A stretch of DNA of 64,000 bases from Asanoa ishikariensis (GTDB taxonomy: Bacteria; Actinomycetota; Actinomycetes; Mycobacteriales; Micromonosporaceae). A model generated the notes under the pieces. The model was not told the origin of the DNA. It ran no database searches and saw only the letters and a program-made list of their open reading frames with translations. This document shows positions 41,566 through 58,768 of the stretch, in pieces. The translations under genes were made by a program, and so were the position numbers. Every line of letters starts with the position of its first letter. Position 1 is the stretch's first letter. Location of the stretch: positions 124,001 through 188,000 of the forward strand of contig NZ_FNQB01000004.1 of assembly GCF_900107455.1 (NCBI RefSeq), read 5' to 3'.

Positions 41566-41610
41566 AACGTAACTCGTATGACGTTAGACGTCAACACAGT
41601 GCCGTATACT
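41566..41610. promoter_or_regulatory. divergent promoters with shared 15-bp operator TGACGTTAGACGTCA
   Basis: The operator is at 41579-41593 (TGACGT / ACGTCA dyad with 3-bp centre). Minus-strand promoter for the importer: -35 TTGACG (41589-41594), 17-bp spacer, -10 TACGTT (41566-41571). Plus-strand promoter for the regulator: TTAGAC (41584-41589) and TATACT (41605-41610). Both -35 boxes overlap the operator, and the same 15-mer (reverse strand) lies in front of GH95 at 58753. Confidence 0.78.
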
Positions 41611-41659
41611 GCCGAGATCGGGCTGGGGGCAGGGCAAAAGGGCGCGTCCGGAGGGCGAC

Positions 41660-42427
41660 ATGACGGCATCAGGGCAACTGAACGGCGCGGCCGCGGCGCC
41701 GCCGGTCTGGGCGCGGCGGTCCACCAACCTGGCGAAGGCGATCACCGCCGAGTTGGTGCAACGGATCGTCCGCGGCGTTCATCAGCCGGGCACGCCGCTG
41801 CCGCCCGAGCCCGCGCTCTGTGAGACGTTCGCGGTGAGCCGCACGGTGGTGCGCGAGGCGGTGAAGATCCTTCAGGAGAAGGGGCTGGTGCAGGTCCGCC
41901 AGGGCACGGGCACGATCGTCACCGCACCGTCCGAATGGGACATGCTCGACGATCTGGTGCTCGGAGCGACGATCGCCGAGGACGACACCGTGGCGATCCT
42001 CGACGACGTGGTGGTGACCCGGCGCGTCCTCGAATCGGACATGGCGAACGTCGCCGCGCGGCTGGCCGACCAGGAGACCGTCGACCTACTGCGCGCCCAG
42101 GTCGACCGCATGGACGAGCTCGTCGGCGACCACGTGACCTACGAGGAACACGACCGCGCCTTCCACGACATGATCATGCGAGCGTCCGGCAACCGCATCG
42201 CCCGGGCGGTCGTGCGCTCGCTGCAGGGTCAGGTCATCCGGAGCGCCGCCTACCTCGGGCGCACCGAGCGTGCCCTGTGTGTCGCGTCCAACCAAGGGCA
42301 CCGCCGGATCTACGACCGCATCGCCGCGCACGACCCGGCCGGCGCCGCCGAGGCGATGTTCACCCACATCACCGACGCTTGGCTGGTCCGCCGCAGCGGA
42401 CCAGACCCCGTGCGCCTGCGCCGTTAG
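41660..42427 (+). CDS. GntR family regulator, FadR/FCD subfamily
   Basis: 255 residues. Winged helix with 'PLPPEPALCETFAVSRTVVR' and 'EAVKILQEKGLVQVRQGTGT', then an FCD helical ligand domain (about 100-245) with metal-type residues in 'EEHDRAFHDMIMRASGN' and 'QGHRRIYDRIAAHD'. Divergent from the deoxysugar operon; its own -35 region overlaps the operator, so autoregulation is likely. The ligand is probably a sugar acid from the pathway. Confidence 0.94.
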   Translation: MTASGQLNGAAAAPPVWARRSTNLAKAITAELVQRIVRGVHQPGTPLPPEPALCETFAVSRTVVREAVKILQEKGLVQVRQGTGTIVTAPSEWDMLDDLVLGATIAEDDTVAILDDVVVTRRVLESDMANVAARLADQETVDLLRAQVDRMDELVGDHVTYEEHDRAFHDMIMRASGNRIARAVVRSLQGQVIRSAAYLGRTERALCVASNQGHRRIYDRIAAHDPAGAAEAMFTHITDAWLVRRSGPDPVRLRR

Positions 42428-42524
42428 TCGGCGGCCGGTGTGTAGCCGAGCTCGCGCGAGATTCGGTCGGCGCCGCCGCCCTGACCGGTTCCAACCGCTG
42501 CCGCGCGCGCCATCCAGTCCGCGT

Positions 42525-43186: not shown

Positions 43187-44494
43187 ATGAAACTGAGTCG
43201 AACCCTGCTCGCCGGCTCCGCGGCACTGGTCGCGGTGGTGGCCTCGGCGCTGATGGTGCCGGGGCTCGCCACGCCGGCGGCCGCGGCGTCGTTGGCCGAG
43301 GTCACCAACTTCGGCGACAACCCGGGCGGCATGAGGATGCACATCTACGTGCCGGACGTCCGCCCGGCACAACCGGCGATCGTGGTCGCCATGCACGGTT
43401 GCGGCGGTTCCGGACCCGGCTTCTACTCCGGCAGTGAGTTCGCCTCGCTGGCCAACCAGTACGGCTTCATCGTCATCTACCCGTCCGCGACCCAGCAGGC
43501 CGGCTTCGGCAACTGCTTCGACACGTGGTCGGACGCGGCCAAGCGCCGCGGTGGCGGCAGCGACCCGGTCTCCATCGTGTCGATGGTGAGCTATGCGCAG
43601 CAACGCTACGGCGGTGACCGCAACCGCGTGTACGCGACCGGAAGCTCGTCCGGCGGCATGATGACCAACCAGATGCTCGCCCTCTACCCGGACGTGTTCC
43701 GCGCGGGAGCGGCGTTCATGGGTGTCCCGTTCAACTGCTTCGCCAACGCGGCCGACTATCCGCCTGGCAGCAGCAGGTGCACGGGCGGCAGCATGGACCG
43801 CACACCGCAGCAGTGGGGTGACGCGGTGCGCCAGGCCTATCCCGGCTACACCGGGGCGCGGCCCCCGGTGCAGCTCTGGCACGGCACGAACGACACGCTC
43901 GTGCCGTACTCGCTGCTGCAGGAGTCCATCGAGCAGTGGACCAACGTGTTCGGCCTCAGCCAGTCGCCGACCTCGACCGACACGCCGCGGTCCGGCTGGA
44001 ACCGTCGCCGCTTCGCCACCGCCTCCGGCGACGTGCGGGTGGAGGCCTACAGCATCGCGGGCGCCGGGCACAGCCTTCCGTCCAGCGGGATGGCTGCGGC
44101 CGCCGTCGCGTTCTTCGGTCTGAGCGGCACGAGCCCGACGCCGCCGCCGGCCACGACCCCGCCGGCCACGACGCCGCCCGCCACGACGGCTCCGCCCGCC
44201 GGAGCGTGCGCCGCGAGCTACCGCCAGGTCAGCTCGTGGACCGGGGGATTCCAGGGAGAGGTGACCGTGCGGGCGGGACAGGCGGCCGTCAACGGTTGGC
44301 AGGTCGGCCTGGGCTTCACCGGCGGCACCAGCATCACGCAGGTGTGGAGCGGCACGCTTTCCGGCAGCGGCTCGAGCTACACCGTGCGGAACGTGTCGTG
44401 GAACGCCACCATCCCCGCCGGAGGCTCGACGGTCTTCGGGTTCCTCGGTGCCGGGACCGCGGCCGCCCCAACCCTCTCGTGCACGAGCCCGTAG
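43187..44494 (+). CDS. secreted CE1 esterase (PHB depolymerase/acetyl-xylan esterase family) with CBM2
   Basis: 435 residues. Signal peptide to about residue 34 ('PAAAAS'). Catalytic domain (about 38-315): 'IVVAMHGCGGSGPGFYSGSE', Ser154 in GSSSG, Asp236 in 'HGTNDTLVPY', His295 in 'GAGHSLPS'. A repetitive Pro/Thr linker (about 313-335, PPATTPPATT units) leads to a CBM2 (about 337-435) with 'WTGGFQGEVTV' and 'NGWQVGLGF'. CE1 enzymes of this layout remove acetyl or feruloyl groups from xylan; the CBM2 targets cellulose or xylan. Monocistronic. Confidence 0.92.
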   Translation: MKLSRTLLAGSAALVAVVASALMVPGLATPAAAASLAEVTNFGDNPGGMRMHIYVPDVRPAQPAIVVAMHGCGGSGPGFYSGSEFASLANQYGFIVIYPSATQQAGFGNCFDTWSDAAKRRGGGSDPVSIVSMVSYAQQRYGGDRNRVYATGSSSGGMMTNQMLALYPDVFRAGAAFMGVPFNCFANAADYPPGSSRCTGGSMDRTPQQWGDAVRQAYPGYTGARPPVQLWHGTNDTLVPYSLLQESIEQWTNVFGLSQSPTSTDTPRSGWNRRRFATASGDVRVEAYSIAGAGHSLPSSGMAAAAVAFFGLSGTSPTPPPATTPPATTPPATTAPPAGACAASYRQVSSWTGGFQGEVTVRAGQAAVNGWQVGLGFTGGTSITQVWSGTLSGSGSSYTVRNVSWNATIPAGGSTVFGFLGAGTAAAPTLSCTSP

Positions 44495-44534
44495 CCGCAA
44501 TATTCAACTCATCTTCGACGGTCGTCAGAATTTC

Positions 44535-44564
44535 TTGACATTTATGGGCGTGGTCCCCGACGAT
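44535..44564 (+). promoter_or_regulatory. candidate promoter of the NMT1-type importer operon
   Basis: Perfect -35 TTGACA (44535-44540) followed after 18 bp by GACGAT (44559-44564), 109 bp before the binding-protein ATG. Confidence 0.4.
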
Positions 44565-44672
44565 GGCCAACAGGTCGTTGTGACCCGGCTCACACGCGCC
44601 GCACGACGGCACCTGCCACGAGCTCGCAATTGACGCATCCCACCCACCTCCGTTCCAGGAAGGGCCTCGTCA

Positions 44673-45650
44673 ATGAAGAAGGTCAGCGTTCTCGGGTTGG
44701 TCGCCGTCGTCGCGGTGGCCCTCGCCGGTTGCACGGACTCGGACTCGCCGCCGGCGGCGGCGCAGTCGGGTGGCGACCAGCTTCGCCAGGTACGGGTCGC
44801 GGCCTTGCCGATCACCGAGACAGCCGCGCTGTGGGGCGGCATTAAGGCCGGCATCTTCGCCAAGCACGGGCTTCAGGTCGAGGTGTTGCCCGCGCAGGGC
44901 GGCGCACAGGCGATTCCCGCGCTGATCAACGGTGACATCGACTTCGCCATCGGCCAGCCGTTCGGGCCGTTCCGCGCCGACGTGCAGGACCTGGGCGTCG
45001 TGGTGATCGGCAACTACGCGTCGTCCTACGCCACCGGCGACGACATCAACGCCGTCGTCGCGTCGGCCAAGTCGGGCATCAAGCGGCCCGCCGAGTTCGC
45101 CGGCCGCCGCGTCGCGGTCAACAGCCTGGGCGCCGCCGGCGACGTGACGATCATGGCGGCGGTCGAGAAGGACGGTGGTGACCCGAAGACGATCAAGTTC
45201 GTCGAGGTCGCCTTCCCCGACGCACCCGCGCAGCTCGCGGCCGGCAACATCGACGCCGCGTGGGTGCCGGAGCCGTTCGTCACCCAGCTTCGCAGCCGGG
45301 GCGACACCTTCGTCGTCGCGCCCTACCAGGCGACCGTCCCGGGGCTCGCGACGCTGACCACGATCGCGACCAAGAAGCGGTTGGACTCCGACGCGGACCT
45401 GGTGGCGGACTTCTCCGCGGCGATGAAGGAGTCGCTCCAATGGGCGCAGGACCCCGCCAACGAGCCCGCCCTCCGACAGTCCATCAAGGACAACCTGAAG
45501 CTGCCCGAGGCGGTGGCGGACTCGGTCAAGCTGCCGGCGTTCGGGTGGGAGGTCGACCGGGCGAGCCTCGAGGCGCTGGCGACGCTGGCCGGTAAGTACG
45601 GGGTCCTCGACCGCCAGCCGAACCTCGATCGCCTCATCCAGCAGCAGTAG
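44673..45650 (+). CDS. ABC transporter substrate-binding lipoprotein, NMT1/SsuA/TauA-like
   Basis: 325 residues. Lipobox 'VALAGC' (Cys near residue 20). The body has the NitT/TauT-type signature: 'TAALWGGIKAGIFAKHGLQV', 'GGAQAIPALINGDIDFAIGQ', 'AGRRVAVNSLGAAGDVTIMA', 'IDAAWVPEPFVTQLRSRGD'. Such receptors bind sulfonates, taurine, pyrimidine precursors or aromatic acids. Linked to two permeases and, further on, a PaaX-type regulator, so an aromatic or carboxylate substrate is possible. Confidence 0.92.
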   Translation: MKKVSVLGLVAVVAVALAGCTDSDSPPAAAQSGGDQLRQVRVAALPITETAALWGGIKAGIFAKHGLQVEVLPAQGGAQAIPALINGDIDFAIGQPFGPFRADVQDLGVVVIGNYASSYATGDDINAVVASAKSGIKRPAEFAGRRVAVNSLGAAGDVTIMAAVEKDGGDPKTIKFVEVAFPDAPAQLAAGNIDAAWVPEPFVTQLRSRGDTFVVAPYQATVPGLATLTTIATKKRLDSDADLVADFSAAMKESLQWAQDPANEPALRQSIKDNLKLPEAVADSVKLPAFGWEVDRASLEALATLAGKYGVLDRQPNLDRLIQQQ

Positions 45651-45657
45651 CCGTCCG

Positions 45658-46452
45658 GTGCAGGTTCCCTCCGTTCGGCGACCCCGTCCCCGCAAGGTCC
45701 TGCTCGGCGCCTGCGGCCTGGTCGGCTTCCTCCTCTGCTGGCAGCTCGTGCCGGCCCTGGGCCTCGTCGACCCGCAGTACCTGCCCTACGCCACGGACGT
45801 GCTCGTGCGGCTGGCCGAGGAGCTGCGCGACCTCGCCTTCTGGCGACGACTCGGGTTCACCATGACGTCCTGGGCGATCGGCCTCACCGTGGCGACGCTC
45901 GCCGCCGTCGTCCTCGGCGCCGTGGTCGGGCTGGTGCCGTTCCTGCGCCGCGCGACGCATACGCTGATCGAGTTCCTGCGTCCGATCCCGTCGGTCGCCC
46001 TCATCCCGCTCGCGGTGCTCATGTTCGGCATCCAACTGCAGGCCGCCCTGGTCGTCATCGTGTACGCCTCGTTCTGGCAGGTGTTCGTGCAGATGATCTA
46101 CGGTGTCGCCGATGTGGACGTCGTGGCGCGCGACACCGCTCGCAGTTTCCGCCTCAACCGGCGCCAGCGGCTGGCCTACCTGGTGCTGCCGACGGCCCTG
46201 CCCTACCTGGTGACGGGTGTCCGGCTCGCCGCCGCCGTCGCGCTGATCCTCGCCATCACGTCGGAGATGGTGATCGGCAACCCGGGCGTGGGTCGGATGA
46301 TCGAGCTCTCCCGCTCGGCCGGCGACGCCGAGGGCCTCTACGCCCTGGTGGTCCTCACCGGGCTGCTCGGACTGCTGGTCAACATCGTGTTCCGCCTCAT
46401 CGAACGGCGGTCGCTGGCCTGGCACCAGTCGGTGCGCGGGGAGGCGCCATGA
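45658..46452 (+). CDS. ABC transporter permease, SsuC/TauC-type
   Basis: 264 residues, GTG start 7 nt after the lipoprotein stop. Six helices with the EAA-type loop 'VARDTARSFRLNRRQRLAYL' and 'IEFLRPIPSVALIPLAVLMF', the standard SsuC pattern. Followed by a second, similar permease with ATGA overlap. Confidence 0.93.
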   Translation: MQVPSVRRPRPRKVLLGACGLVGFLLCWQLVPALGLVDPQYLPYATDVLVRLAEELRDLAFWRRLGFTMTSWAIGLTVATLAAVVLGAVVGLVPFLRRATHTLIEFLRPIPSVALIPLAVLMFGIQLQAALVVIVYASFWQVFVQMIYGVADVDVVARDTARSFRLNRRQRLAYLVLPTALPYLVTGVRLAAAVALILAITSEMVIGNPGVGRMIELSRSAGDAEGLYALVVLTGLLGLLVNIVFRLIERRSLAWHQSVRGEAP

Positions 46453-47264
46453 CCGCACGGACCCTCGCGGCGACCGGATCGCGCGACGTGGGCCGCCGGG
46501 TCCTCGGCGGCCTGCTGTATCCCCTCGGCCTTCCGTTCCTGGTGCTGGTGTGCTGGGGGCTGGCCTCGACGGGAACGACGAACCGGTTCTTCCCCGGCCC
46601 GCTCGCGATCCTGAGCGCCTTCCGCGAGACCTGGATCGGTCCGGCGTTCGTCGACGACGTGTTGCCGAGCCTCTACCGGCTCGGCCTCGGCATCGCGGCG
46701 TCGATCGTCGTCGGCGTCGCCGCCGGCACCGTCGTGGGTCTGTCCCGCGGTATCGGCGACGTGGTCGAGCCGTTGTTGGAGTTCTTCCGCGCCATCCCGC
46801 CGCCGGTGCTGATCCCGGTCGGCATGCTCCTGCTCGGCATCACCGACACGATGAAGGTGGTGGTCATCGTGTCGGGCGCGGTCTGGCCCATCCTGCTGAA
46901 CACGATCGACGGCGTACGGTCGATCGACAGCGTGCAGTCCGATACCGCGCGCTCGTTCCGGATCGGGCGGCGCCAGCGGCTGTGGTCTCTGGTGCTACCC
47001 GCGGCGAGCCCCCGGATCATGACCGGCGTCCGGCAGGCCCTGTCGATCGCGCTGATCCTGATGGTCATCTCGGAGATGTTCGCGTCGTCCTCCGGGCTGG
47101 GCTACCGGATCGCCTACTTCCAGCGGAACTACCTCATCGCCGAGATGTGGAGCGGCATCCTGCTGCTCGGGCTCGTCGGAGTGCTGCTCGCCGCCGCCTT
47201 CGGCGTGGTCGAGCGGCGGGTGCTTCGTTGGTACCACGGAAGCAGGGCGATCGAGCGTGCCTGA
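46449..47264 (+). CDS. ABC transporter permease, SsuC/TauC-type (second)
   Basis: 271 residues. 'LEFFRAIPPPVLIPVGMLLL' and EAA loop 'SVQSDTARSFRIGRRQRLWS'. Two different SsuC-like permeases in tandem suggest a heterodimeric channel. No ATP-binding subunit follows: the next gene is a regulator that overlaps its stop by 8 nt. Confidence 0.93.
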   Translation: MTARTLAATGSRDVGRRVLGGLLYPLGLPFLVLVCWGLASTGTTNRFFPGPLAILSAFRETWIGPAFVDDVLPSLYRLGLGIAASIVVGVAAGTVVGLSRGIGDVVEPLLEFFRAIPPPVLIPVGMLLLGITDTMKVVVIVSGAVWPILLNTIDGVRSIDSVQSDTARSFRIGRRQRLWSLVLPAASPRIMTGVRQALSIALILMVISEMFASSSGLGYRIAYFQRNYLIAEMWSGILLLGLVGVLLAAAFGVVERRVLRWYHGSRAIERA

Positions 47265-48180
47265 CCGGACCGGCCCGCCGGAGGGGCGAACTGTGCGCAG
47301 CCGTGCACCGAAGCAACTGGTGCTCGCCTTCTTCGGCGAGCACGTGGTCGACGACGATCCCGGCCCCATCCGGGCCAGCGTGCTGATCGGCGTGCTCGAG
47401 GGCGCCGGCGTCGCCGCCCCGGCGACGCGCGCCACCCTCGACCGGCTCGTGCAGACCGGCATCCTCGCGCGCAGTCGCAGCGGGCGGGAGATCCTGTTCT
47501 CCCTGACCGAACACGGCACGGCGGTGCTGCGCGAGGCGACGGCCCGGGTCCGCGGCCCGCACCCGTTCGACCCGCAGGGCACCGGCTGGACGCTCGTCAC
47601 GTTCACGATTCCCGAGGACCAGCGCACGCTCCGCCACCGCCTGCGCTCGACCCTGACGTGGGAGGGCTTCGCGCCGCTGCGCGACGGGTTGTGGTTGGCG
47701 CCCGGCGAGGTCGACCTCGCCAGCTCGCTCGAGCCGTTGCGCCAGGACCTGCCGCCGGACGCCGTCGTCGGCTTCCACGCCCGGGAGCTCACGGGGTTCC
47801 CGATCGGCCAGAGTGTCCGGGCCGCGTGGGACATCGAGACGATCCGGCGTGAGCATCTCGCGTTCATCGAGACCTGGGAAGACGCGGCGGCGACGGCTCA
47901 GGCGTCGAGCGCGCTGACGCTGCGAACGATGCTCGTGGCGGACTGGCTGGCACTGCTGCGCGCGGACCCGAGGCTGCCGCGTGAGTTCATGGACGCGCGC
48001 TGGCCCGCCGAGCGGTCGGTGGAGGTCTACCGCCGGATGCACGAGCGGCTCGCCCGGGCGTCCGCCGGCGAGTTCGCCACGCTTGTCGGCGACCGCACGG
48101 CCGTCAACCGCCGAAGCGCCGGCGCAGGTCGGTCTTCCGCACCTTCCCCGAGGCGGTCCGCGGCAGGTCGTTCACGATGA
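47257..48180 (+). CDS. PaaX family transcriptional regulator (first copy)
   Basis: 307 residues from a GTG overlapping the permease stop. N-terminal winged helix 'KQLVLAFFGEHVVDDDPGPI' with 'APATRATLDRLVQTGILARS', central 'GTGWTLVTFTIPEDQRTLRH' and 'LRDGLWLAP', and a C-terminal domain ending '...WPAERSVEVYRRMHERL'. PaaX repressors answer to aryl-CoA thioesters. The last ~25 residues (Arg/Ser-rich) are read antisense to the ligase gene (77-bp overlap) and are outside the normal family length. Co-transcribed with the importer. Confidence 0.9.
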   Translation: MPDRTGPPEGRTVRSRAPKQLVLAFFGEHVVDDDPGPIRASVLIGVLEGAGVAAPATRATLDRLVQTGILARSRSGREILFSLTEHGTAVLREATARVRGPHPFDPQGTGWTLVTFTIPEDQRTLRHRLRSTLTWEGFAPLRDGLWLAPGEVDLASSLEPLRQDLPPDAVVGFHARELTGFPIGQSVRAAWDIETIRREHLAFIETWEDAAATAQASSALTLRTMLVADWLALLRADPRLPREFMDARWPAERSVEVYRRMHERLARASAGEFATLVGDRTAVNRRSAGAGRSSAPSPRRSAAGRSR

Positions 48181-49606
48181 CCACCTTCTGGGGCAGCTTG
48201 TAGCGGGCGATCCTGCCATCCAGCATTCCGCGTACGGTCTCCGTGTCGATGGTGACGTCCGCGCGCACCGTCATGATCGCCCAGGGCACCTCACCCCATC
48301 GCTCGTCGGGGACTCCGATGACCGCTGCCGCGGTGACCCCGTCGATCTCGCTGAGCAGGAGCTCGAGCTCGGCCGGGTAGATGTTCTCGCCACCGGAGAT
48401 GATCATGTCCTTGAGTCGGCCGGCGATGTGCAGGTAACCGTCGGAGTCCAGATATCCCAGGTCGCCTGAGCGGAACCAGCCGTCCGCGGTGAGCGCCTCG
48501 GCCGTCGCCTCCGGAAGCCCGAGGTAGCCGGCGAAGACGTTGGGACCCGAGATCTCGATCTCGCCGACCGTGCCCGGCGGGCCAGGGACCCGCACGTCGG
48601 TGAAGAAGTGGGGGAGGCCGACGCTGCCCTGCTTCGCCCGCGTCATGGTCGGCGGCAGCGAGGTCACGCCGGGCGACGCCTCGGTCATGCCGTAGCCCTG
48701 GGAGAACGAGAGCCCGCGATCCTCGTACGCGCGCAGGATCCGGGTAGGCACCGCGGACCCGCCGCAGGTGAGCTTGGCCAACGTCGACAGGTCGGTCGAG
48801 GCCCAGTTCGGATGGTCGGCCATGAGCTGGTACGTCGTCGGCACTCCGCTGAGCATCGTGACGCCGTGCCGTTCGATCTGGGCGAGCGCGCGTCCGGGCT
48901 CGAAGCCCCGCTCCAGCACCATCGTGGCTCCCTTGAGGATGACGGGTAGGGCACCCATCCCCAGCGAGGCCACGTGGAACAGCGGAGAGATCATCAGCGC
49001 CACGTCCGTGGAGACGACGTCGTAGTCGACGACGCAGTTCACCGCGACCCAGGTGAGGTTGCCGTGCGTCAGCACCGCTCCCTTGGCCCGGCCGGTCGTG
49101 CCGGACGTGTAGATGATCGCCGCCGGGTCGTCCATGCCCACGCCCGCTGGCTCGGCCGTCGCGCCTTCCGCACCTGGCAGGCGCGTGAGCCCGGGCCGGG
49201 CTGGGGTTCCTCGGCCGGTGGAGACGACGTGCGGCACGCGGGCCCGGTCCGCGACGGGCGTCACGGCCTCCGTTAGCTCCGGGTCGTGGATCAGGATCCG
49301 GGCGCGGCTGTCCGTGAGGACGTGGCGCACCTCGGCCGGTGCCAGCCGGGTGTTGACCGGGACGAAGACGGCGCCGACCTGCGCGACGCCGAACATCACC
49401 TGGAGGAGGTCGGGACTGTTCTCGCCCAGGTACGCGACCGCGTCACCGCGCCGGACGCCGAGCCGCCGGAGCACCGAGGCCACCTGGTCCGCGCGATCGG
49501 CGAACTGCCGGTAGGTGGTCGACCGGTCGTCGTGAACCAGCGCGACCTTCTCGGGCGACCTGAGCCGGCGCTTGGCCAGCCAGGTGCCGATACCCTGCTG
49601 GTGCAT
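48104..49606 (-). CDS. acyl-CoA synthetase (AMP-forming)
   Basis: 500 residues. ANL-family motifs: P-loop 'YTSGTTGRAKGAVLTHGN', 'GYGMTEASPGVTSLP', 'GWFRSGDLGYLDSDGYLHI', 'GRLKDMIISGGENIYPAELE', and the C-terminal catalytic lysine in 'RTASGKVRKTDLRR'. It activates a carboxylic acid as the CoA thioester. Last gene of an operon with MaoC hydratase, amidohydrolase and SDR (15-bp gap after MaoC), matching a beta-oxidation-like or aromatic-acid route. Confidence 0.94.
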   Translation of the reverse strand: MHQQGIGTWLAKRRLRSPEKVALVHDDRSTTYRQFADRADQVASVLRRLGVRRGDAVAYLGENSPDLLQVMFGVAQVGAVFVPVNTRLAPAEVRHVLTDSRARILIHDPELTEAVTPVADRARVPHVVSTGRGTPARPGLTRLPGAEGATAEPAGVGMDDPAAIIYTSGTTGRAKGAVLTHGNLTWVAVNCVVDYDVVSTDVALMISPLFHVASLGMGALPVILKGATMVLERGFEPGRALAQIERHGVTMLSGVPTTYQLMADHPNWASTDLSTLAKLTCGGSAVPTRILRAYEDRGLSFSQGYGMTEASPGVTSLPPTMTRAKQGSVGLPHFFTDVRVPGPPGTVGEIEISGPNVFAGYLGLPEATAEALTADGWFRSGDLGYLDSDGYLHIAGRLKDMIISGGENIYPAELELLLSEIDGVTAAAVIGVPDERWGEVPWAIMTVRADVTIDTETVRGMLDGRIARYKLPQKVVIVNDLPRTASGKVRKTDLRRRFGG

Positions 49607-49621
49607 CAGCGACCTCCCAGC

Positions 49622-50972: not shown

Positions 50973-50974
50973 GT

Positions 50975-51898
50975 TCAGGAGGCCGGCCGGAACGCCTCGG
51001 GAAGGTCCGGGAACCGTTCTCCGACCTGCTGCAACGCCCCGGCGAACGTCGTCGGCCACGCGGCGGCGAGCGTGTCGTAGGACCAGCCACCCTCGTGATG
51101 GGCGGTCAGCGCGGCCTCGGGGTGGGTCCAGATCTGGATGCGGTCACCACCGACGCCGACCACCTGACCGGTGACCGCCGCGGCCGCGTCGGAGGCCAGG
51201 AAGGCGACGAGGCCGGTCACGTCGTCCGCGGTGCCGAACCCGAGGTCGTGCCGGAAGAAGGCGGGTACGGGCTCCCCGCGCGAGTCCGCCCGCACCGCGG
51301 CGGCGAAGTAGGGGATGGTGGAGGTCATCGCGGTCGCCGCGACCGGGACGACCGCGTTGACGGTGATGCCGGCGCGTTCGAGCTCCAGCGCCCAGGTGCG
51401 CACCATGCCGACGATGCCCGCTTTGGCGGCCGCGTAGTTGGTCTGGCCGAAGTTGCCGCGCTGGCCCGTGGGTGAACCGACGCAGATGACCCGCCCGCCC
51501 TCGCCGGCCTGGCGCATGTGCCGGACGGCCGCGCGCACCGTGGTGAAGGTGCCCCGCAGGTGCACGTCGATCACCGCGTCGAACTCGTCGTCGCTCATCT
51601 TCCACAGCACCGCGTCGCGCAGGATGCCGGCGTTCGTCACGAGGATGTCCAACCGGCCGAAGCGGCTGACGGCCTCGGTGACCAGTGCCTGCGCCGTGGC
51701 GGTGGGACCGACGGGCGCGACCACCGCGACGGCACGGCCACCGGCTGCCTCGATCGCCGCGACGGCGTCGTCCGCGGCTTGGCCGTCGACGTCGTTCACC
51801 ACCACGCAAGCGCCCTGCCGGGCGAGCTGGCGGGCGTAGGCCAGGCCGAGGCCCTGCCCGGCTCCGGTGACGATCGCGACCTTGCCATCGAGGGGCAT
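50975..51898 (-). CDS. SDR dehydrogenase with C-terminal extension (multifunctional-enzyme type, 3-hydroxyacyl-CoA dehydrogenase-like)
   Basis: 307 residues from the ATG at 51898 (GAAGGAG 6 nt upstream). 'IVTGAGQGLGLAYARQLARQ', 'DILVTNAGILRDAVLWKMSD', catalytic 'SPTGQRGNFGQTNYAAAKAG'. A ~60-residue tail ('GWSYDTLAAAWP') resembles the dehydrogenase units of peroxisomal multifunctional enzymes, which pair with MaoC-type hydratases, as here. First gene of the acyl-CoA operon. Confidence 0.92.
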   Translation of the reverse strand: MPLDGKVAIVTGAGQGLGLAYARQLARQGACVVVNDVDGQAADDAVAAIEAAGGRAVAVVAPVGPTATAQALVTEAVSRFGRLDILVTNAGILRDAVLWKMSDDEFDAVIDVHLRGTFTTVRAAVRHMRQAGEGGRVICVGSPTGQRGNFGQTNYAAAKAGIVGMVRTWALELERAGITVNAVVPVAATAMTSTIPYFAAAVRADSRGEPVPAFFRHDLGFGTADDVTGLVAFLASDAAAAVTGQVVGVGGDRIQIWTHPEAALTAHHEGGWSYDTLAAAWPTTFAGALQQVGERFPDLPEAFRPAS

Positions 51899-51921
51899 GC
51901 GAACTCCTTCGCGTCGACCGC

Positions 51922-51966
51922 AACATAATGCGAAATCCGGCAGCACGTCAACGAATGTGTAATACA
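51922..51966 (-). promoter_or_regulatory. promoter of the acyl-CoA operon with adjacent palindrome
   Basis: On the minus strand: -35 TTGACG (51945-51950), 17-bp spacer, -10 TTATGT (51922-51927). Just upstream is ATGTGTAATACAT (51954-51966), an ATGT...ACAT dyad in a good position for a regulator such as the adjacent PaaX-type protein. Confidence 0.55.
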
Positions 51967-51977
51967 TCGATGCTCGG

Positions 51978-52826
51978 TCAGCGGGTGTCGACGAGTTCCT
52001 CGAAGCGACGTTGGGCCGGTTCTGCCAGCGACTCGGCCGTGCGAAGGAACAGCTGCCTCGCCTCGGCGCGCGGAAAGGACGGCGGCAGGAACTCGGCCGG
52101 AAGATCGGGGTCGTTGCCCACCAGCGCCCGCCAGTCGTCGACGATCTCGGTGCGGTGGACGAGCGCCGCCCGCGGTGCCAGCCCGCCCTCGACGGCCCGG
52201 CTCGCCAGCCGGCGATGGCGGGCCAGGAAGTCGCGGTAGGCGCCGGCGAGGTCGTCGATGCGCCAGCCGGCCTCGAGCCGGGCCCGGCCGGTGGGCAGCA
52301 GTTCCAGGTCGCGGGACCGCAGCACGACCGCGTCCGTGATGCCGAGCTCGCGGAGTTGGTCGCGTGCCTCGTCGAACCGGTCGTGCGGGGTGACCCAGGT
52401 GCCGTCGTACAGCGGCCAGAAGGTCAGCCAGCGCAGCCTGGCCCGCAGCAGCCGGCGCTGGCTCGCGTCGTCCAGGGGGAGGGTGAACGCGATCAGCGTC
52501 CAGAGGCCGTCCCAGGTGCTCTCGTCGCTCGGCGCGAAGATGCGCCGAGCGCCGCGGCGCAGGATCTGCCAGGCCGGATCGGTCAGTCGGTAGCTGGTGT
52601 GTCGGCCCTCTTTGGACCGCTCGAGCAGACCTCGCTGGGTCAGTCGGCTGAGCGTCGCGCGCGCGTTCGCCGGAGCGATGTCGAACTCGGACAAGGCCGT
52701 GACCAGCCCGCCGGACGGCAGCGGCTCCCGGTCGGCGCGCCAGTAGTCGCCGAGCAGGGTCACCAGCAGCCGCTGCGCCCGGGCCCGCCCGACCGGTGGC
52801 CGTCGCTCATCGCTGTCGGTCAACAC
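51978..52826 (-). CDS. PaaX family transcriptional regulator (second copy)
   Basis: 282 residues from a GTG. 'RAQRLLVTLLGDYWRADREP', 'APANARATLSRLTQRGLLER', 'WDGLWTLIAFTLPLDDASQR', 'WPLYDGTWVTPHDRFDEA', 'GAYRDFLARHRRL' and 'WRALVGNDPDLPAEFLPPSF': full-length PaaX. It lies directly upstream of, and on the same strand as, the acyl-CoA operon (79-bp gap holding a promoter) and probably represses it. A second, dissimilar PaaX copy sits at the other end of the block. Confidence 0.94.
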   Translation of the reverse strand: MLTDSDERRPPVGRARAQRLLVTLLGDYWRADREPLPSGGLVTALSEFDIAPANARATLSRLTQRGLLERSKEGRHTSYRLTDPAWQILRRGARRIFAPSDESTWDGLWTLIAFTLPLDDASQRRLLRARLRWLTFWPLYDGTWVTPHDRFDEARDQLRELGITDAVVLRSRDLELLPTGRARLEAGWRIDDLAGAYRDFLARHRRLASRAVEGGLAPRAALVHRTEIVDDWRALVGNDPDLPAEFLPPSFPRAEARQLFLRTAESLAEPAQRRFEELVDTR

Positions 52827-53077
52827 GCCTGAGAAGCTACCGCCCTCGCCCGCGCGGGCCAGAAAGACAGTCGTCTTTTTTCGTTACGAAGGTCCATTCG
52901 AAATAGTCCTCGCGACGCGGTCGATACACCTCTTGAAAGTTTCCGAAACCATCTGGCAACATCGGCGCTACCCGATGTGAACGGTTCGTCCTCCCTGTTT
53001 GAAATGCGCCCGGGCTTTGTGCGAAATCGAATGTTAACGCTCACATAGCCAATCACGTGAGGCGAGAGGAGTTGATC
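52827..53077. other. intergenic region between PaaX copy 2 and the GH27-ricin gene
   Basis: 251 bp, divergent. Contains the LacI-type palindrome annotated at 53031-53046 and a less GC-rich stretch (about 52860-52940) likely to hold the PaaX promoter. Confidence 0.5.
53031..53046 (+). promoter_or_regulatory. LacI-type operator ATGTTAACGCTCACAT before GH27-ricin
   Basis: 16-bp quasi-palindrome with the central CG of LacI-family operators (ATGT ends, 12 of 16 symmetric positions), 31 bp before the start codon. It differs from the TTTACAACGTCGTAAA site used at 21-27 kb, so another LacI protein outside the window is implied. Confidence 0.5.
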
Positions 53078-54715
53078 GTGAGAGTTCGCCGGATGGCCCG
53101 GTTCGCCGCCCTGGTGCTCGCTGTTCTGCTCGCGGGAGGAGGCGCAGTGGTCCTGCGGGCGCCCGCCGCCACGGCGCTGGCGAACGGTGTGGCGCGCGTG
53201 CCGCCGATGGGCTGGAACAGTTGGAACAGCTTCGGCTGCAACATCAACGAGACCCTGATCCGGCAGATGGCGGACGCCCTGGTCTCCAGCGGAATGCGCG
53301 ATCTGGGTTACCAGCACGTCGTCGTGGACGACTGCTGGTTCAACCCCAACCGCGACGCCGCCGGGGACCTGCAGGGCGATCCGTCCCGCTTCCCGAGCGG
53401 GATGCGGGCGCTCGGCGACTACCTGCACGCCAGGGGCCTGAAGTTCGGCCTCTACCAGGTGCCGGTAGACCGGACCTGCGCGCAGTACTTCGGCGCCTAT
53501 CCGGGTGCGACCGGCAGCCAGGGGCACGAGGCGCAGGACGCGCGGCAGTTCGCCGCCTGGGGCGTCGACTACCTCAAGTACGACTGGTGCTCGCCCAACG
53601 GAACGATCCAGGACCAGGTCACCACGTTCGCGAAGATGCGCGACGCCCTGGCCGCCACGGGCCGGCCGATCGTCTACAGCATCAACCCCAACAGCATCCA
53701 CGCGAAGACCGGGCCGCAGCGCAACTGGGGTGACGTGGCCAACCTGTGGCGCACCACCGAGGACATCACCAACGCGTGGGACACCGGCCAGAGCAACGGC
53801 TACCCGATGGGCATCCAGAACATCGTCAACGTCACCGTCCCGCTGGCGAACTACGCCGGCCCCGGCAGCTTCAACGACCCCGACATGCTCGAGGTCGGCC
53901 GCGGCGGGATGTCGGACACCGAGATGCGCAGCCACTTCGCCCTGTGGGCCATGCTGGCGGCGCCGCTGATCGCCGGCAACGACGTGCGGTCCATGACCTC
54001 GGCGACGCAGACGATCCTCAAGAACCAGAACCTCATCGCGATCAACCAGGACTCGCTGGCCCTCCAGGCGCGCCAGGTGTCCGGCGACGGTTCGCGCCGG
54101 GTGCTCGCGAAACCCCTCGCGAACGGGGACGTCGCGGTCGCCCTGTTCAACCAGAGCGGCTCGACCGCCACGATCTCGACCACCGCCGCGGCGGTCGGCA
54201 AGAGCGGCTCGTCGTTCACGCTGCGGGACGCGTGGACCAACACGACCACCAGCTCGACCGGCACGATCAGCGCGTCGGTGCCGGCCCACGGCACGGTCGT
54301 CTACCGGGTGTCCGGGGGCGGCACCGTGCCGTCGAACACGGGGACCCTGGTCAGCGCGGCATCCGGGAAGTGCCTCGACGTGCCCCAGAGCAGCGGGGCC
54401 AACGGCACCCAGCCGATCATCTGGGACTGCAACGGTGGCACCAACCAACGCTGGACGCGCGACGGGCAGACCGTCCGGGCGCTCGGCAAGTGTCTGGACG
54501 CTCCGCTCAACGCCGCCGCCGGGTCGAAAGCGCAGCTCTGGGACTGCAACGGCGGTGCCAACCAACGCTGGACGTTCGGCTCCGACGGCACCGCACGCGG
54601 TGAGCAGTCCGGACTCTGCCTGGACGTCGACCGGAACCTGACCACCAACGGCACCGTCGTGCTGCTCTGGAACTGCACGGCGGCCGCCAACCAGCGCTGG
54701 GCGCTCGTCACCTGA
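53078..54715 (+). CDS. secreted GH27 alpha-galactosidase with ricin-B lectin domain
   Basis: 545 residues from the GTG at 53078 (AGGAG 6 nt upstream). Signal peptide to about residue 35. GH27 barrel: 'PPMGWNSWNSFGCNINE', nucleophile Asp169 in 'YLKYDWC', acid/base Asp229 in 'LWRTTEDI', 'YAGPGSFNDPDMLEVG', then the beta-sandwich domain. A C-terminal ricin-B trefoil (about 420-545) has three 'NQRW' repeats. It is a canonical GH27, unlike the more diverged copy at 10.7 kb. Cleaves alpha-galactosides or beta-L-arabinopyranosides outside the cell. Confidence 0.95.
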   Translation: MRVRRMARFAALVLAVLLAGGGAVVLRAPAATALANGVARVPPMGWNSWNSFGCNINETLIRQMADALVSSGMRDLGYQHVVVDDCWFNPNRDAAGDLQGDPSRFPSGMRALGDYLHARGLKFGLYQVPVDRTCAQYFGAYPGATGSQGHEAQDARQFAAWGVDYLKYDWCSPNGTIQDQVTTFAKMRDALAATGRPIVYSINPNSIHAKTGPQRNWGDVANLWRTTEDITNAWDTGQSNGYPMGIQNIVNVTVPLANYAGPGSFNDPDMLEVGRGGMSDTEMRSHFALWAMLAAPLIAGNDVRSMTSATQTILKNQNLIAINQDSLALQARQVSGDGSRRVLAKPLANGDVAVALFNQSGSTATISTTAAAVGKSGSSFTLRDAWTNTTTSSTGTISASVPAHGTVVYRVSGGGTVPSNTGTLVSAASGKCLDVPQSSGANGTQPIIWDCNGGTNQRWTRDGQTVRALGKCLDAPLNAAAGSKAQLWDCNGGANQRWTFGSDGTARGEQSGLCLDVDRNLTTNGTVVLLWNCTAAANQRWALVT

Positions 54716-54829: not shown

Positions 54830-54895
54830 CAGCCGGACGCTTCCCGAACCCTATATTCGAGTGGTACGGCCCCGAGCCGGCTCGAAGGGGGATTC

Positions 54896-55609
54896 GTGGC
54901 GCTGACCGACGAAGCCATCGCGAAGCTGCGCGGCATGATCGCGAGCGGCGAGCTGCAGCCCGGGGCCAGGCTGCCCCCGGAACAGCAACTGGCCACGCAG
55001 ATCGGCCTTTCGCGCAGCGGTGTCCGCGAGGCGGTGAAGGTTCTCGAGTCCGCTCGGGTGCTGGACGTCCGCCGGGGAGACGGCACCTATGTCACAAGTC
55101 TGTCGCCGGGGCTGTTGCTGGAAGGACTCGGTGTCGCGGTGGAGCTGTTGCGAGACGACACGCTGCTGGAGGTCATGGAGGTCCGCCGGATGTTGGAGCC
55201 GGTGGCGACCGGCGTGGCGACGCTGCGCATGACCACGGTCCAGCTCGCGGAGCTGAGCCGCATCCTCGACGACATGGGTGCGGCGGCCGGCGACGCGGAG
55301 AAGCTCATCGAGTACGACACCGCGTTCCATCACGTGATCACCGCCAGCACCGGCAACGAGACGCTGACCTCGCTGCTCGACGGCCTCTCCACCCGCACCC
55401 TGCGCGCCCGGGTCTGGCGCGGGTTGATCGAGGGCAACGCGGCCGACCGCACCATCGACGAGCACCGGGCGATCTATCTCGCCCTGCTCGCCCGGGATCC
55501 GGCACTCGTCCACGCCGCCGCCCTCGTCCACGTGAACACGTCGGAAGCCTGGCTGCGTACGGTGATCGGTGCCGCGCCTGCCCTAAACGAACGCGACCGT
55601 CCACTGTAG
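54896..55609 (+). CDS. GntR family regulator, FadR/FCD subfamily (second)
   Basis: 237 residues from a GTG (AAGGGGG upstream). 'GELQPGARLPPEQQLATQIG', 'LSRSGVREAVKVLESARVLD', FCD domain with 'LIEYDTAFHHVITASTGNET' and 'DEHRAIYLALLARDP'. It converges on the GH95 gene with a 27-bp overlap. A perfect palindrome CGAGCCGGCTCG (54873-54884) lies just upstream and may be its own operator. Its targets are not evident. Confidence 0.92.
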   Translation: MALTDEAIAKLRGMIASGELQPGARLPPEQQLATQIGLSRSGVREAVKVLESARVLDVRRGDGTYVTSLSPGLLLEGLGVAVELLRDDTLLEVMEVRRMLEPVATGVATLRMTTVQLAELSRILDDMGAAAGDAEKLIEYDTAFHHVITASTGNETLTSLLDGLSTRTLRARVWRGLIEGNAADRTIDEHRAIYLALLARDPALVHAAALVHVNTSEAWLRTVIGAAPALNERDRPL

Positions 55610-58600
55610 GTTCGTGCTGCCGTTCGACGCCCACTGCTTGAGCGTCGAGCCGGCGGCGACGCTGCCGCCGTTGTCGACGGCCAGTCCGGTGGTCCGGTTG
55701 AGAATCCGATAGCGGCCCTCGCCGAGGTGGAGGACCTGCCACTGCTGGTTGGTGCCCCCGTTCCAGGCCGCCTGCCGCACCGGGGAGCCGTTGGCGGTCG
55801 ATCCCCAACCGTCGGCGACCATGCCGTTGGCGCGGTTGACGATGCGGTAGTAGCCGGTGCCGAGCTCGACGAGCTGCCATTGCAGGTTGTTGCTGCCGTT
55901 CCAGGCCCACAGCTTCAGGTTCGAGCCGGAGGCGACGGACCCGCCACTGTCGATGACCAAACCGTTGGCCACGTTGGTCACGCGCACGTACCGCGACGGG
56001 TTGAAGACGACCCGCACCGACGCGATGGCGTCGTTGTTGCCGGTGGCGCGCAGGTCCGCGTTGTCCGCGGTGAAGGTCCAGCTCGTGCCCGTGAAGTTGT
56101 CGTTCGCGTAGCCGACGACCTGGTATCCGGAGGTCACCCGGACCGACGACGCGGTTCGCAGCCCGATCCCGGCCGACTGGAGCTGCGCCGCCGTGAAACT
56201 GCCGACCGCGAGCGCGGCGCCGCTGCCGCCGAAGTTCGTGTCCGAGTAGAGCGCCGCGGTGCCGACGACCGGAAGCTGCGCCGCGGTCACCCGGTACGTG
56301 CGCCCGGCCAGCACCGGAAGTGCGATGACGTCGCTCTCCGGTCGGGTGACCGAGACGGCGCCGCCGGTGCTGGTGTCGACGACCTGGAAGGTGCCGGCGA
56401 AGTCCCGGCCGCGGACGTTGACGGTCCCGGCACGGTCCGCCCGCACCAGGATCTCGCTCGCCTGTCCGGCGCTCCAGGTGATGCCGACGGTGTAGCCCCC
56501 GCGACCGCGGAGCCCCTGGACCTGGCCGCTCGTCCAGGCGGACGGCAGCGCCGGCAGCACGTGCAGCTCTCCGGCGTGGCTCTGCAGCAGCATCTCCGCG
56601 ATGCCGGACGTCGCGCCGAAGTTGCCGTCGATCTGGAACGGCGGGTGCAGGTCGAACATGTTGGGCGCGAGCCTTGCCGGCGTGGCGAGCAGTCGGATCA
56701 GGTCGTGCGCGCGGGTGCCCTCCTCCAGCCGTGCCCAGTAATTGATCTTCCACGCGAGCGACCAGCCGGTGCCGTCGTCACCGCGCAGCTCGAGGGTGCG
56801 CCGCGCGGCGTTGAAGAGAGTGGCATTGCCGCGCTTGGTGATCTGGTTGCTGGGATGGAGCCCGTAGAGATGCGACACGTGGCGGTGGCTCGTCTCGGGT
56901 TCGACCCAGTCGTACAGCCACTCCATGATGTTGCCGCGTGACCCGACCCGCATCGGGGGCAGCCGGTCGCGGGTCGCCAGCACCCGGGTCCGGAAGTCGG
57001 CGTCCACCCCCAGCACCTGGCTGGCCTGGGCGTACGCGTTGAACAGGTCCCGCAGGATCTGGTTGTCCATGGTCGGCCCCGCGCACACGCTGACACCGGA
57101 GTGGTGCGCGAGCTCCGGCGAGTTCGACGGGTTGGTGACCAGGTAGCCCAGGCTCGGCTCGGGCACCAGGCTGTCCACGAAGAACTGGGCGGCGCCCTTG
57201 AGCGCCGGATAGTACTGGCGGAGGAAGTCGAGATCGTTGGTGAACCGGTAGTGGTCCCAGATCAGCGTGGCCAGCCAGGCGCCTCCGGTCTGCCACATTC
57301 CCCACAGCGCACCGTCGACGACGGAGCTGCCCCGCCAGGCGTCGGTGTTGTGGTGGGTCACCCACCCGCCGGCGCCGTACTGCACCTGTGCGGTGCGGGC
57401 GCCGGTCACGGCCAGGTCGTTCACCATCCTGAACACCGGCTCGAAGCACTCGGACAGGTTCGTGGTGTCGGCCGGCCAGTAGTTCATCGGCAGGTTGGCG
57501 TTGATCGTGTACTTCGAGTCCCAGGACGGCGCGAGCGAGTCGTTCCAGATGCCCTGCAGGTTCGCCGGTTGGGTGCCCTGGCGCGACGAGGAGATCAGGA
57601 GATAGCGACCGAACTGGAAGAGCAGCGCGGAGAACTGCGGGTCGTTGACGCTGGCGTGCTGGGAGATCCGGACGTCGGTCGGCTGGTCGGCCGCCGAGGT
57701 CCGACCGAGGTCGAGCGTCGTCCGGTTGAAGAGCGTCTGGTAGTCGGCCACATGCCGGCTGCGTAGCTGGTCCCAGGAGCGGCTCTGCGCGTTGGCGAGG
57801 TGCCCCCGCGCGATGCCCTGGTAGTCGCCGGACACGTTGGCGTAGCTGACGTAGTTGGTGCCGATGGAGATCAGCAGCGTCACGCTGGTGGCGTTGCTGA
57901 CCGTGAGCGTCCCGCCCGAACTGCTGACGCTGCCTCCCTCGACGACGGCCCGGGCCAGCGCCAGGAACCGGACGCGCCCGGTGACGCCCTCCATGTCGCC
58001 CGAGAGGCCGTCGAGCGCGATCGTCGCGCTGTCCGGACTGGACTGCGTCGTGCGCTGCGGGCTGTCGAAGCGGGCCGAGAAGCTGATGGCGCCGGCGCGG
58101 TCGGCGGTCAGCCGGACGGCGATCGCCTGGTCGGGCGCGCTGGCGAGCGTCTCGCGCTGGTGCCGGACCCCGTTCTGCAGGTACGACACCGAGGTCGTCG
58201 CGGTCGTCAGGTCCAGATGCCGGTAGTACTCGGAGACCCCGGAGCCGCTCGGGAACGTGAGTCGGATGTTGCCGACCGTCTGGTACGCGAGCTGGCCGGC
58301 CGGTCGGCCGAGCATGGCCTGGTCGACAAGGGACTGTGCCTGGCTCCACTGGTTGGCGAACACCAGACGCCGGAGCTCCGACAGCGCCCCCGCGCCCTGG
58401 GTGTTGCTCGAGTCGTACGGCCCGCCGGCCCAGACGGTGTCCTCGTTGAGCTGCAGACGCTCGACGTCGACGTTGCCGAACACCATCGCGCCCAGCCTCC
58501 CGTTGCCGATCGGGAGGGCGCGCAGCCAGTCCGTGCCCGCGCCCTCGTCGTACCAGAGCGCGAGGTCGTTCGCCGCCAGCACCGCGGCGGGGGCGGCCGA

Positions 58601-58690
58601 CGCCGGCCGAGGATGAGCGATCCAGGGGAGCATCGCGGCGCCGGCGCCTGCCGCTCCGAGCAGCACTTGCCTCCGGGTCAGGTCAGACAT
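55583..58690 (-). CDS. Tat-exported GH95 alpha-L-fucosidase with beta/gamma-crystallin and ricin-like domains
   Basis: 1035 residues from the ATG at 58690 (GGAGGT 8 nt upstream). Twin-arginine signal 'DLTRRQVLLGAAGAG'. GH95: N-terminal 'WLRALPIGNGRLGAMVFGN' and 'QLNEDTVWAGGPYD', catalytic region 'GIWNDSLAPSWDSKYTINAN', Glu590 in 'IMEWLYDW' (equivalent to the general acid of the bifidobacterial enzyme), 'DGNFGATSGIAEMLL'. Then a beta/gamma-crystallin-like pair (about 815-905; 'ALYSDTNFGGSGAALAVG', 'VVGYANDNFTGTSWTF') and ricin-like repeats to the end. It releases alpha-1,2-linked L-fucose or L-galactose outside the cell. Its promoter carries the same 15-bp operator as the deoxysugar operon. 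Confidence 0.95.
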   Translation of the reverse strand: MSDLTRRQVLLGAAGAGAAMLPWIAHPRPASAAPAAVLAANDLALWYDEGAGTDWLRALPIGNGRLGAMVFGNVDVERLQLNEDTVWAGGPYDSSNTQGAGALSELRRLVFANQWSQAQSLVDQAMLGRPAGQLAYQTVGNIRLTFPSGSGVSEYYRHLDLTTATTSVSYLQNGVRHQRETLASAPDQAIAVRLTADRAGAISFSARFDSPQRTTQSSPDSATIALDGLSGDMEGVTGRVRFLALARAVVEGGSVSSSGGTLTVSNATSVTLLISIGTNYVSYANVSGDYQGIARGHLANAQSRSWDQLRSRHVADYQTLFNRTTLDLGRTSAADQPTDVRISQHASVNDPQFSALLFQFGRYLLISSSRQGTQPANLQGIWNDSLAPSWDSKYTINANLPMNYWPADTTNLSECFEPVFRMVNDLAVTGARTAQVQYGAGGWVTHHNTDAWRGSSVVDGALWGMWQTGGAWLATLIWDHYRFTNDLDFLRQYYPALKGAAQFFVDSLVPEPSLGYLVTNPSNSPELAHHSGVSVCAGPTMDNQILRDLFNAYAQASQVLGVDADFRTRVLATRDRLPPMRVGSRGNIMEWLYDWVEPETSHRHVSHLYGLHPSNQITKRGNATLFNAARRTLELRGDDGTGWSLAWKINYWARLEEGTRAHDLIRLLATPARLAPNMFDLHPPFQIDGNFGATSGIAEMLLQSHAGELHVLPALPSAWTSGQVQGLRGRGGYTVGITWSAGQASEILVRADRAGTVNVRGRDFAGTFQVVDTSTGGAVSVTRPESDVIALPVLAGRTYRVTAAQLPVVGTAALYSDTNFGGSGAALAVGSFTAAQLQSAGIGLRTASSVRVTSGYQVVGYANDNFTGTSWTFTADNADLRATGNNDAIASVRVVFNPSRYVRVTNVANGLVIDSGGSVASGSNLKLWAWNGSNNLQWQLVELGTGYYRIVNRANGMVADGWGSTANGSPVRQAAWNGGTNQQWQVLHLGEGRYRILNRTTGLAVDNGGSVAAGSTLKQWASNGSTNLQWTVAFV

Positions 58691-58740
58691 GACGGACCTC
58701 CGCAACGCATCGAAACTCGTCTAAGCGATGTGAAGGTCAG

Positions 58741-58768
58741 GTTACAAACATCTGACGTCTAACGTCAA
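58741..58768 (-). promoter_or_regulatory. GH95 promoter with 15-bp operator shared with the deoxysugar operon
   Basis: TGACGTCTAACGTCA (58753-58767) is the exact reverse complement of the operator at 41579-41593. On the minus strand the -35 TTGACG (58763-58768) and -10 TGTAAC (58741-58746, 16-bp spacer) place the operator exactly as at the importer promoter. Confidence 0.75.

Follow-up and report, generated by a model that had tools for sequence, protein, structure and literature searches.

A 15-bp candidate operator of a FadR-type regulator at a sugar-transport operon and at a GH95 glycoside hydrolase gene of Asanoa ishikariensis

We analysed a 64,000-nucleotide stretch of the Asanoa ishikariensis genome (contig NZ_FNQB01000004.1, positions 124,001 to 188,000; hereafter the window, numbered from its first letter) in which one 15-mer occurs twice, before an operon for sugar transport and catabolism and before the gene of a secreted glycoside hydrolase of family GH95. 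The 15-mer TGACGTTAGACGTCA lies at 41579-41593 on the plus strand and its exact reverse complement at 58753-58767, as a first-pass annotation of this DNA had claimed, and a TTGACG box, relative to which that annotation had noted the same placement of the two sites, overlaps one half-site in both minus-strand promoters. The genes and elements concerned are the following.

41660..42427, plus strand: Reg1, a GntR/FadR-type regulator of 255 amino acids with a helix-turn-helix (HTH) and an FCD domain (Pfam GntR 1.4e-19, FCD 4.5e-24)
41579..41593: predicted Reg1 operator O1, TGACGT-TAG-ACGTCA, between Reg1 and the transport operon (from sequence and footprint)
41566..41594, minus strand: operon promoter, placed by eye (-35 TTGACG 41594-41589, 17-nt spacer, -10 TACGTT 41571-41566)
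41558..41572: degenerate second Reg1-like site (2 mismatches, matrix score 12.2), 21 bp from O1 and overlapping the -10 region
40241..41509, minus strand: solute-binding protein of an ATP-binding cassette (ABC) transporter (Pfam SBP_bac_1)
39265..40302, minus strand: ABC permease 1
38438..39265, minus strand: ABC permease 2
37285..38436, minus strand: MLE', an MR/MLE-type sugar-acid dehydratase of 383 amino acids (Pfam MR_MLE_C 2.1e-46; solved relatives)
36260..37288, minus strand: Zn-dependent alcohol dehydrogenase (start inferred)
35502..36263, minus strand: KduD-like short-chain dehydrogenase (TIGR01832 347.3 bits, cutoff 338.85)
35141..35455, minus strand: mutarotase (Pfam rhaM PF05336; start approximate)
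32670..35054, minus strand: secreted GH141-type hydrolase with a ricin-type lectin domain (BT_1002, 5mqp, 1.3e-42)
58753..58767: predicted Reg1-type operator O2, TGACGT-CTA-ACGTCA, in the GH95 promoter (from sequence and matrix)
58739..58768, minus strand: GH95 promoter, placed by eye (-35 TTGACG 58768-58763, 18-nt spacer, -10 TAACCT 58744-58739)
55583..58690, minus strand: secreted GH95 protein (alpha-L-fucosidase/alpha-L-galactosidase family) with crystallin-like and ricin-type domains (start inferred at 58690; Pfam GH95_cat 4.5e-171; 7kmq 2e-229)

Read in the same promoter orientation, O1 and O2 are unlike at the three central bases only, because the palindrome TGACGT-NNN-ACGTCA has its spacer inverted, and the minus strand of both promoters reads CTGTGTTGACGT. 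Neither the O1 nor the O2 region gave a promoter in a generic sigma-70 scan, and a terminator-like scan match at 58768-58752 is the operator palindrome itself. Positions, rarity, footprint, synteny and the homologous GH95 promoters described below were all computed. The genome-wide count of the 15-mer had been set beforehand as a possible refutation; the 15-mer proved rare, with two copies in 9.09 Mb (9,085,759 bases, 11 contigs), both in the window. The palindrome pattern TGACGTNNNACGTCA occurs at three places, compared to none for the reversed control, and the third place (C2:1633650) is within the reading frame of an ABC ATPase. Most of the one-mismatch places inspected (22 of 25) are in long coding-like frames; using a motif matrix trained on 76 sites from relatives, only L008 and L010, both in likely coding frames, scored above 20, and the possibly intergenic ones (L017, L025, perhaps L011 and L022) scored at most 10.3. 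With up to two mismatches there are 491 places versus 202 for the control, so many weak matches are background. In the window, the matches above a matrix score of 8 are O1 and O2 (25.9 each), the site at 41558, which may be merely a conserved -10 element, and one at 4152 (8.2), with no others; when three mismatches were allowed the window held four matches, a number equalled by 3 of 100 window shuffles. A chance origin of the 15-mer was rejected on the genome counts, and its reading as a mere promoter element was rejected because GH141-associated sites retain the palindrome without the TTGACG box. The observation of the repeated 15-mer is thus right and not due to chance.

Reg1 combines a GntR winged HTH with a C-terminal FCD domain, which is the architecture of the FadR subfamily. 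The first-pass annotation had named this divergent regulator as the binder of the 15-mer, and the phylogenetic footprint supports this proposal. Orthologs of Reg1 are present in 73 of 200 family genomes (E<=1e-60). Of the 30 loci with the best scores in the family, one of them from this genome, 27 have the exact palindrome ahead of the regulator and the other three a version with one or two mismatches. In addition, 76 of 80 named loci carry the palindrome upstream of the Reg1 ortholog with up to two mismatches (60 exact, 13 with one mismatch, three with two), at positions between -57 and -115 relative to the matched start (median -74). The named loci are the best 80 of 155 and come from Micromonospora, Nonomuraea, Streptomyces, Actinoplanes, Saccharothrix, Jiangella, Glycomyces and others; the two sets overlap in some genomes and many loci are from Micromonospora, and the counts do not represent independent events. 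The conserved block in the relatives' loci exceeds the palindrome and reads TTGACGTCAnACGTCATACGAG on the operon strand. Furthermore, 28 of 38 Reg1-bearing genomes that were searched match the exact pattern (50 places in total compared to five for the control). Among the six genomes of the genus, Reg1 occurs in this one, G072 and G088, each time with the palindrome upstream, and the genomes in which Reg1 was not found at E<=1e-60 contain no (G052), one (G101) and two (G018) palindromes, all in coding frames. In several Streptomyces loci a block ACGTCATACGAGTT is tandemly repeated about two helical turns away (tandem or second-site loci L166, L170, L175, L183 and L191).

The footprint contains GT-N3-AC, the typical core of FadR-subfamily sites according to excerpts of PMC4494728. 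Reg1 shares the HTH and FCD architecture with the local regulators DgoR, ExuR and LldR of this subfamily, as well as this palindrome core (per the same excerpts) and the location of the operator between the divergent regulator and its target operon; unlike the common FadR-subfamily half-site TKGT, the half-site of Reg1 is TGACGT. Reg1 was matched by 24 NCBIfam models, none of them at cutoff (the best, a NanR model, reached 121.7 bits versus a cutoff of 260), and no description of its regulon was found among the top-ranked open-access papers. Residues D165, H169, H214 and H236 of Reg1, which we take to be the metal ligands of the FCD domain, are invariant in 13 sequences. FCD proteins bind metal-chelated carboxylates through such a residue set, and by analogy this suggests a sugar acid as the inducer of Reg1. 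Judging from the footprint, Reg1 very probably binds O1, which would give a regulator of the FadR type that is widespread in actinobacteria an operator and a regulon that can be tested.

The gene content of the 80 loci was counted at >=45% identity within the retrieved stretch (catalytic parts only for GH95 and GH141). The solute-binding protein was present in 71 loci, the permeases in 71 and 70, MLE' in 76, GH141 in 40 and GH95 in 21, and the core of Reg1 divergent from solute-binding protein, permeases and MLE' is retained in ∼70 of the 80. The GH141 gene of the window starts 86 bp past the mutarotase gene and is probably the last gene of the operon; in 22 loci the start of a GH141 gene lies on the operon strand at a distance of 3.3-5.7 kb from Reg1, approximately where MLE' ends (one is only 27% identical, and the intervening genes were not checked in each). 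Separate GH141 genes with their own strong Reg1 site were found in L131, L138, L170 and L188, and also in L200 and L201. When promoters were scored with the matrix, excluding genes whose match starts past residue 110 or that have <200 bases upstream, 5 of 62 GH141 and GH95 promoters (4 of 42 and 1 of 20, respectively) reached a score of at least 18, compared to 19 of 3700 background windows, which may themselves contain true second sites. The GH141 protein matches BT1002 (5mqp), a GH141 alpha-L-fucosidase acting on rhamnogalacturonan II (excerpts of PMC10154630 and PMC12786026), with remote similarity only; two Asp align with Asp of BT1002, which together with the similarity places the protein in the family, and by our reading of the numbering these probably correspond to D523 and D564 in the BT1002 papers. 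The Pfam model GH141_M is barely over its cutoff (29.4 versus 27 bits), and the family also contains a xylanase and endo-fucanases (the same excerpts). Other sites of this type were seen before secreted proteins: in 14 of the 80 loci a Reg1 site with one mismatch is found at a distance of 2.3-2.5 kb from the start of the regulator, and in the three loci inspected (L119, L121 and L124) this site precedes the gene of a secreted protein, the one in L121 (L121:10843-12261) having only ricin-type lectin domains above the Pfam cutoff, and in G108 an exact Reg1-type palindrome lies before a secreted ricin-domain protein (L213:8577-9986), away from the regulator.

The GH95 protein has the Pfam catalytic domain of the family, and its catalytic residues align to those of 7kmq, the Xanthomonas alpha-1,2-L-fucosidase XacAfc95 (excerpts of PMC8245568), which is its best-scoring solved match. 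The T-I-N-x-N motif and the DGNFG aspartate of XacAfc95 are present in the alignment, and the window protein differs in its additional crystallin-like and ricin domains and in its gene context. A one-mismatch Reg1 site (score 19.4) is found in a visibly homologous GH95 promoter of Jiangella rhizosphaerae (L187). A version of this promoter with two mismatches is present in G018, a genome in which Reg1 was not found; here the homology was recognised by direct reading only. In G069, G085, G147, G094 and L192, GH95 lies downstream of Reg1 on the same strand. The likely coupling of GH95 to the operon therefore recurs, as a lineage-specific feature that is not conserved in the genus. In contig C31 of G018 (L239, ∼13,700), the 5' end of the solute-binding protein gene runs directly into a partial GH95 sequence with regulator and operator gone, which is either a rearrangement or an assembly chimera.

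A second regulator, overlooked in the first-pass annotation though it adjoins GH95, lies on the other side of this gene and is listed here with two further features.

54896..55609, plus strand: GntR2, a second GntR/FadR-type regulator, tail-to-tail with GH95 (27-bp overlap; Pfam GntR 2.9e-18, FCD 1.7e-25)
53003..54715, plus strand: GH27-type alpha-galactosidase with a ricin domain, upstream of GntR2 on the same strand (open frame, start not fixed)
58748..58758: predicted GntR2-type site ACATC-T-GACGT (one mismatch), with the half-site GACGT common to O2

GntR2 has a GntR HTH and an FCD domain and is 34% identical to Reg1. Its motif ACATCNGATGT, searched with up to one mismatch, was found upstream in 15 of 30 loci of the best GntR2 relatives, all within the 22 closest (75-100% identical); upstream of GntR2 of the window itself there was no such match. 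Because derivation and counting of the motif used the same upstream regions, GH95 promoters and fuconate dehydratase (FucD) clusters served as an independent check. Among the 30 GH95 loci with the best scores, 15 have the motif within 200 bp (12 in genus g4, which is Micromonospora, as well as G010, G018 and this genome), against a background of nine matches in 1,538,562 bases of the 80 loci, and either GH95 or a unit of mutarotase and GH95 genes runs divergently from GntR2 in L205, L210 and L211. This genome contains 58 places with up to one mismatch, compared to nine for the control. Two exact sites are among the matches listed. One of them (C2:877434) is located ∼1 kb before the FucD gene at C2:878 kb, a gene that is directly preceded by a one-mismatch site (C2:878394); another one-mismatch site (C4:1659005) lies directly before the FucD homolog at C4:1659 kb. 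Each of these two clusters holds a GntR2 paralog, 52-53% identical. The other exact site, C5:101119, is between convergent frames. The exact site at C2:877434 (position 7435 of L240) overlaps a TTGACA box and adjoins a divergent gene that by eye resembles a cytochrome bd subunit.

The sole match to ACATCNGATGT in the window, with up to one mismatch allowed, is the one at 58748-58758. Since this site and O2 share GACGT, we interpret the GH95 promoter as a combination of two operators of the FadR type. Tentatively, and with some doubt, it may be a composite of three half-sites, ACATC-T-GACGT-CTA-ACGTCA, the middle one being used by both paralogous regulators, in a gene that is moving between sister regulons. 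Because the middle half-site is shared, Reg1 and GntR2 would then have to compete or alternate at GH95, and the promoter could be seen as a snapshot of this move because the GH95 genes of relatives carry either the GntR2 motif (Micromonospora) or the Reg1 site (Jiangella). If so, it would illustrate in a simple form how the operators of paralogous regulators diverge. In a milder reading, the match at 58748 may be an accessory half-site, by analogy with those near GntR-family sites (excerpts of PMC4494728).

Binding, repression, effector, dual control and substrate are inferred from the sequence in the following model. Most likely, a Reg1 dimer covers the -35 box of the divergent operon and would repress import (the ABC transporter), sugar-acid catabolism (the dehydratase, the two dehydrogenases and the mutarotase) and the secreted GH141, and a sugar acid derived from the imported sugar would probably release it. 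Sugar release by GH95 would be under the same switch because its promoter carries an equally good Reg1 operator. GH95 probably answers to two related FadR-type repressors, Reg1 and GntR2, as the overlapping GntR2-type site has the motif of the two FucD clusters. This is an ordinary FadR-type local regulon with one unusual composite operator. We consider the whole reading, with the 15-mer as the Reg1 operator that switches the operon and GH95, with GH95 shared with GntR2 and with an L-galacto sugar as substrate, to be likely. It would tie two secreted enzymes of fucosidase families, GH141 and GH95, to a transporter and the sugar-acid dehydratase MLE'. The FucR regulons of the oxidative L-fucose pathway in microbial mats (excerpts of PMC5507952) similarly have predicted operators at L-fucose transport and oxidation loci; unlike in these, the dehydratase and the transporter are different ones here, and the secreted GH141 and GH95 are included in the proposed regulon.

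Several results weigh against this model. Four of the 80 named loci have no good site upstream of Reg1, and exactness declines with divergence: of the 38 genomes searched, 20 have the exact palindrome beside Reg1 (assigned by coordinate comparison), eight only elsewhere and ten not at all. The GH95 genes of the same-genus G072 and G088 (87 and 86% identical) are without a Reg1 site; in both, a reading frame apparently ends just ahead of GH95, and the automatic upstream alignment is misleading. Near Reg1, 19 of 20 scored GH95 promoters score <18, O2 is less independent than 12 free bases because part of it is common to the -35 box and the GntR2-type site, and none of the named solved dehydratases is a close relative of MLE'. 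The coupling of fucose release to import, as originally proposed, thus holds in part: the exact O2, improbable by chance, and the homologous Jiangella site argue for it, and the missing site in G072 and G088 and the motif of another FadR paralog at Micromonospora GH95 argue against it.

Alternatively, GH95 could be controlled only by its neighbour GntR2, or by a GntR2 paralog. The Reg1-like 15-mer could then be a by-product of the GntR2 site beside the -35 box, the greater part of the second half-site coming from TTGACG, or it could represent an accessory half-site such as those reported in the vicinity of GntR-family sites (excerpts of PMC4494728). This would agree with the adjacency of GntR2 and GH95, with the siteless GH95 genes of G072 and G088, and with ACATCTGACGT at 58748, a variant (one C for T) that also occurs as ACATCAGACGT at Micromonospora GH95 promoters. 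However, O2 fits the Reg1 matrix equally to O1, the promoter-strand bases CTGTGTTGACGT are common to both, and the Jiangella promoter keeps the Reg1 site with no GntR2-type match (up to one mismatch) in the scored region, and we regard control by GntR2 only as unlikely. Far less probable is that the second copy reached the GH95 promoter by chance. The third exact palindrome of the genome falls within a coding sequence, and coding matches occur in other genomes as well, but ∼3 copies per 9.09 Mb correspond to ∼1e-4 per given 250-bp promoter, and O2 belongs to the promoter of a fucosidase-family gene near the regulator and has a homologous counterpart with one mismatch in Jiangella.

The first-pass annotation had also favoured L-fucose over rhamnose as the substrate of the operon. 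The best solved relative of MLE' is an L-talarate/galactarate dehydratase (134.7 bits), followed, among the named dehydratases of interest, by FucD (87.5 bits) and rhamnonate dehydratase (RhamD, 76.4 bits), and MLE' is therefore closest to neither FucD nor RhamD among solved enzymes. The canonical FucD of this genome is at C2:878 kb (651.6 bits to 2hne; the solved-protein comparison supports the FucD label for the C2 protein only), and a third homolog lies at C4:1415 kb, the GntR2-motif check having covered C2:878 kb and C4:1659 kb. In Micromonospora (e.g. L118, L119), the orthologous operon extends further, with genes for a lactonase-type amidohydrolase (PF04909) and an aldo-keto reductase (28 and 30 of the 80 loci, respectively, at >=45% identity), relatives of which lie beside FucD at C2:878-881 kb in this genome. 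In L199 of G018, relatives of the short-chain dehydrogenase (73%) and of the alcohol dehydrogenase (61%) are grouped with a FucD homolog, an aldo-keto reductase and GH95. The position of Thr or His in GH95 was considered as an indicator of the substrate and abandoned: the window protein has Thr, and this residue at the -1 subsite is not diagnostic in a family that includes alpha-L-galactosidase (excerpts of PMC8245568). Overall, an L-galacto sugar, most likely L-fucose, is favoured over rhamnose, and the GH95 protein may be an alpha-L-fucosidase or an alpha-L-galactosidase. The earlier assignment is thus upheld by GH141, GH95 and the neighbours as far as an L-galacto sugar is concerned, and is weakened by an operon dehydratase that is not a canonical FucD and by a related aldo-keto reductase nearest to L-galactose dehydrogenases.

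We consider it rather unlikely that the operon serves a relative of L-fucose (L-galactose, or methylated or otherwise substituted fucose from pectin) and not L-fucose itself. This possibility would fit a dehydratase that is not FucD, with FucD and its partners located elsewhere (C2:878 kb), and a short-chain dehydrogenase that passes one KduD cutoff (two other NCBIfam KduD models score below theirs). It would also fit the alpha-L-galactosidase within GH95 and its non-diagnostic Thr, and the closest solved proteins of the aldo-keto reductase beside the C2 FucD, related to the one in Micromonospora operons, which are L-galactose dehydrogenases (112.5 bits); this enzyme does not separate the two sugars, because L-fucose is 6-deoxy-L-galactose. 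On the other side stands the extension of the Micromonospora operon into relatives of the very amidohydrolase and aldo-keto reductase found beside FucD. An operon for L-rhamnose, to which the rhaM family of the mutarotase would point, is highly improbable: mutarotases 66-67% identical to that of the window adjoin a FucD homolog and GH95 in L210 and L211, the hydrolases of the proposed regulon are GH95 and GH141 (rhamnosidases were not searched for in the neighbourhoods), and RhamD is a weaker match of MLE' than FucD.

Between the two operators, 44634-52883 contains an NMT1/SsuA-type ABC transporter, an AMP-ligase, a MaoC protein, an amidohydrolase, a short-chain dehydrogenase and two PaaX-type regulators, an island that looks unrelated to the sugar regulon. 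A PHB-depolymerase-type esterase with a CBM2 domain (43187-44494) lies 0.76 kb past Reg1 on the same strand. Elsewhere in the window, two tandem open frames at 21928-24267 and 24368-26290 have similar N-terminal signal-like regions and are apparent duplicates.

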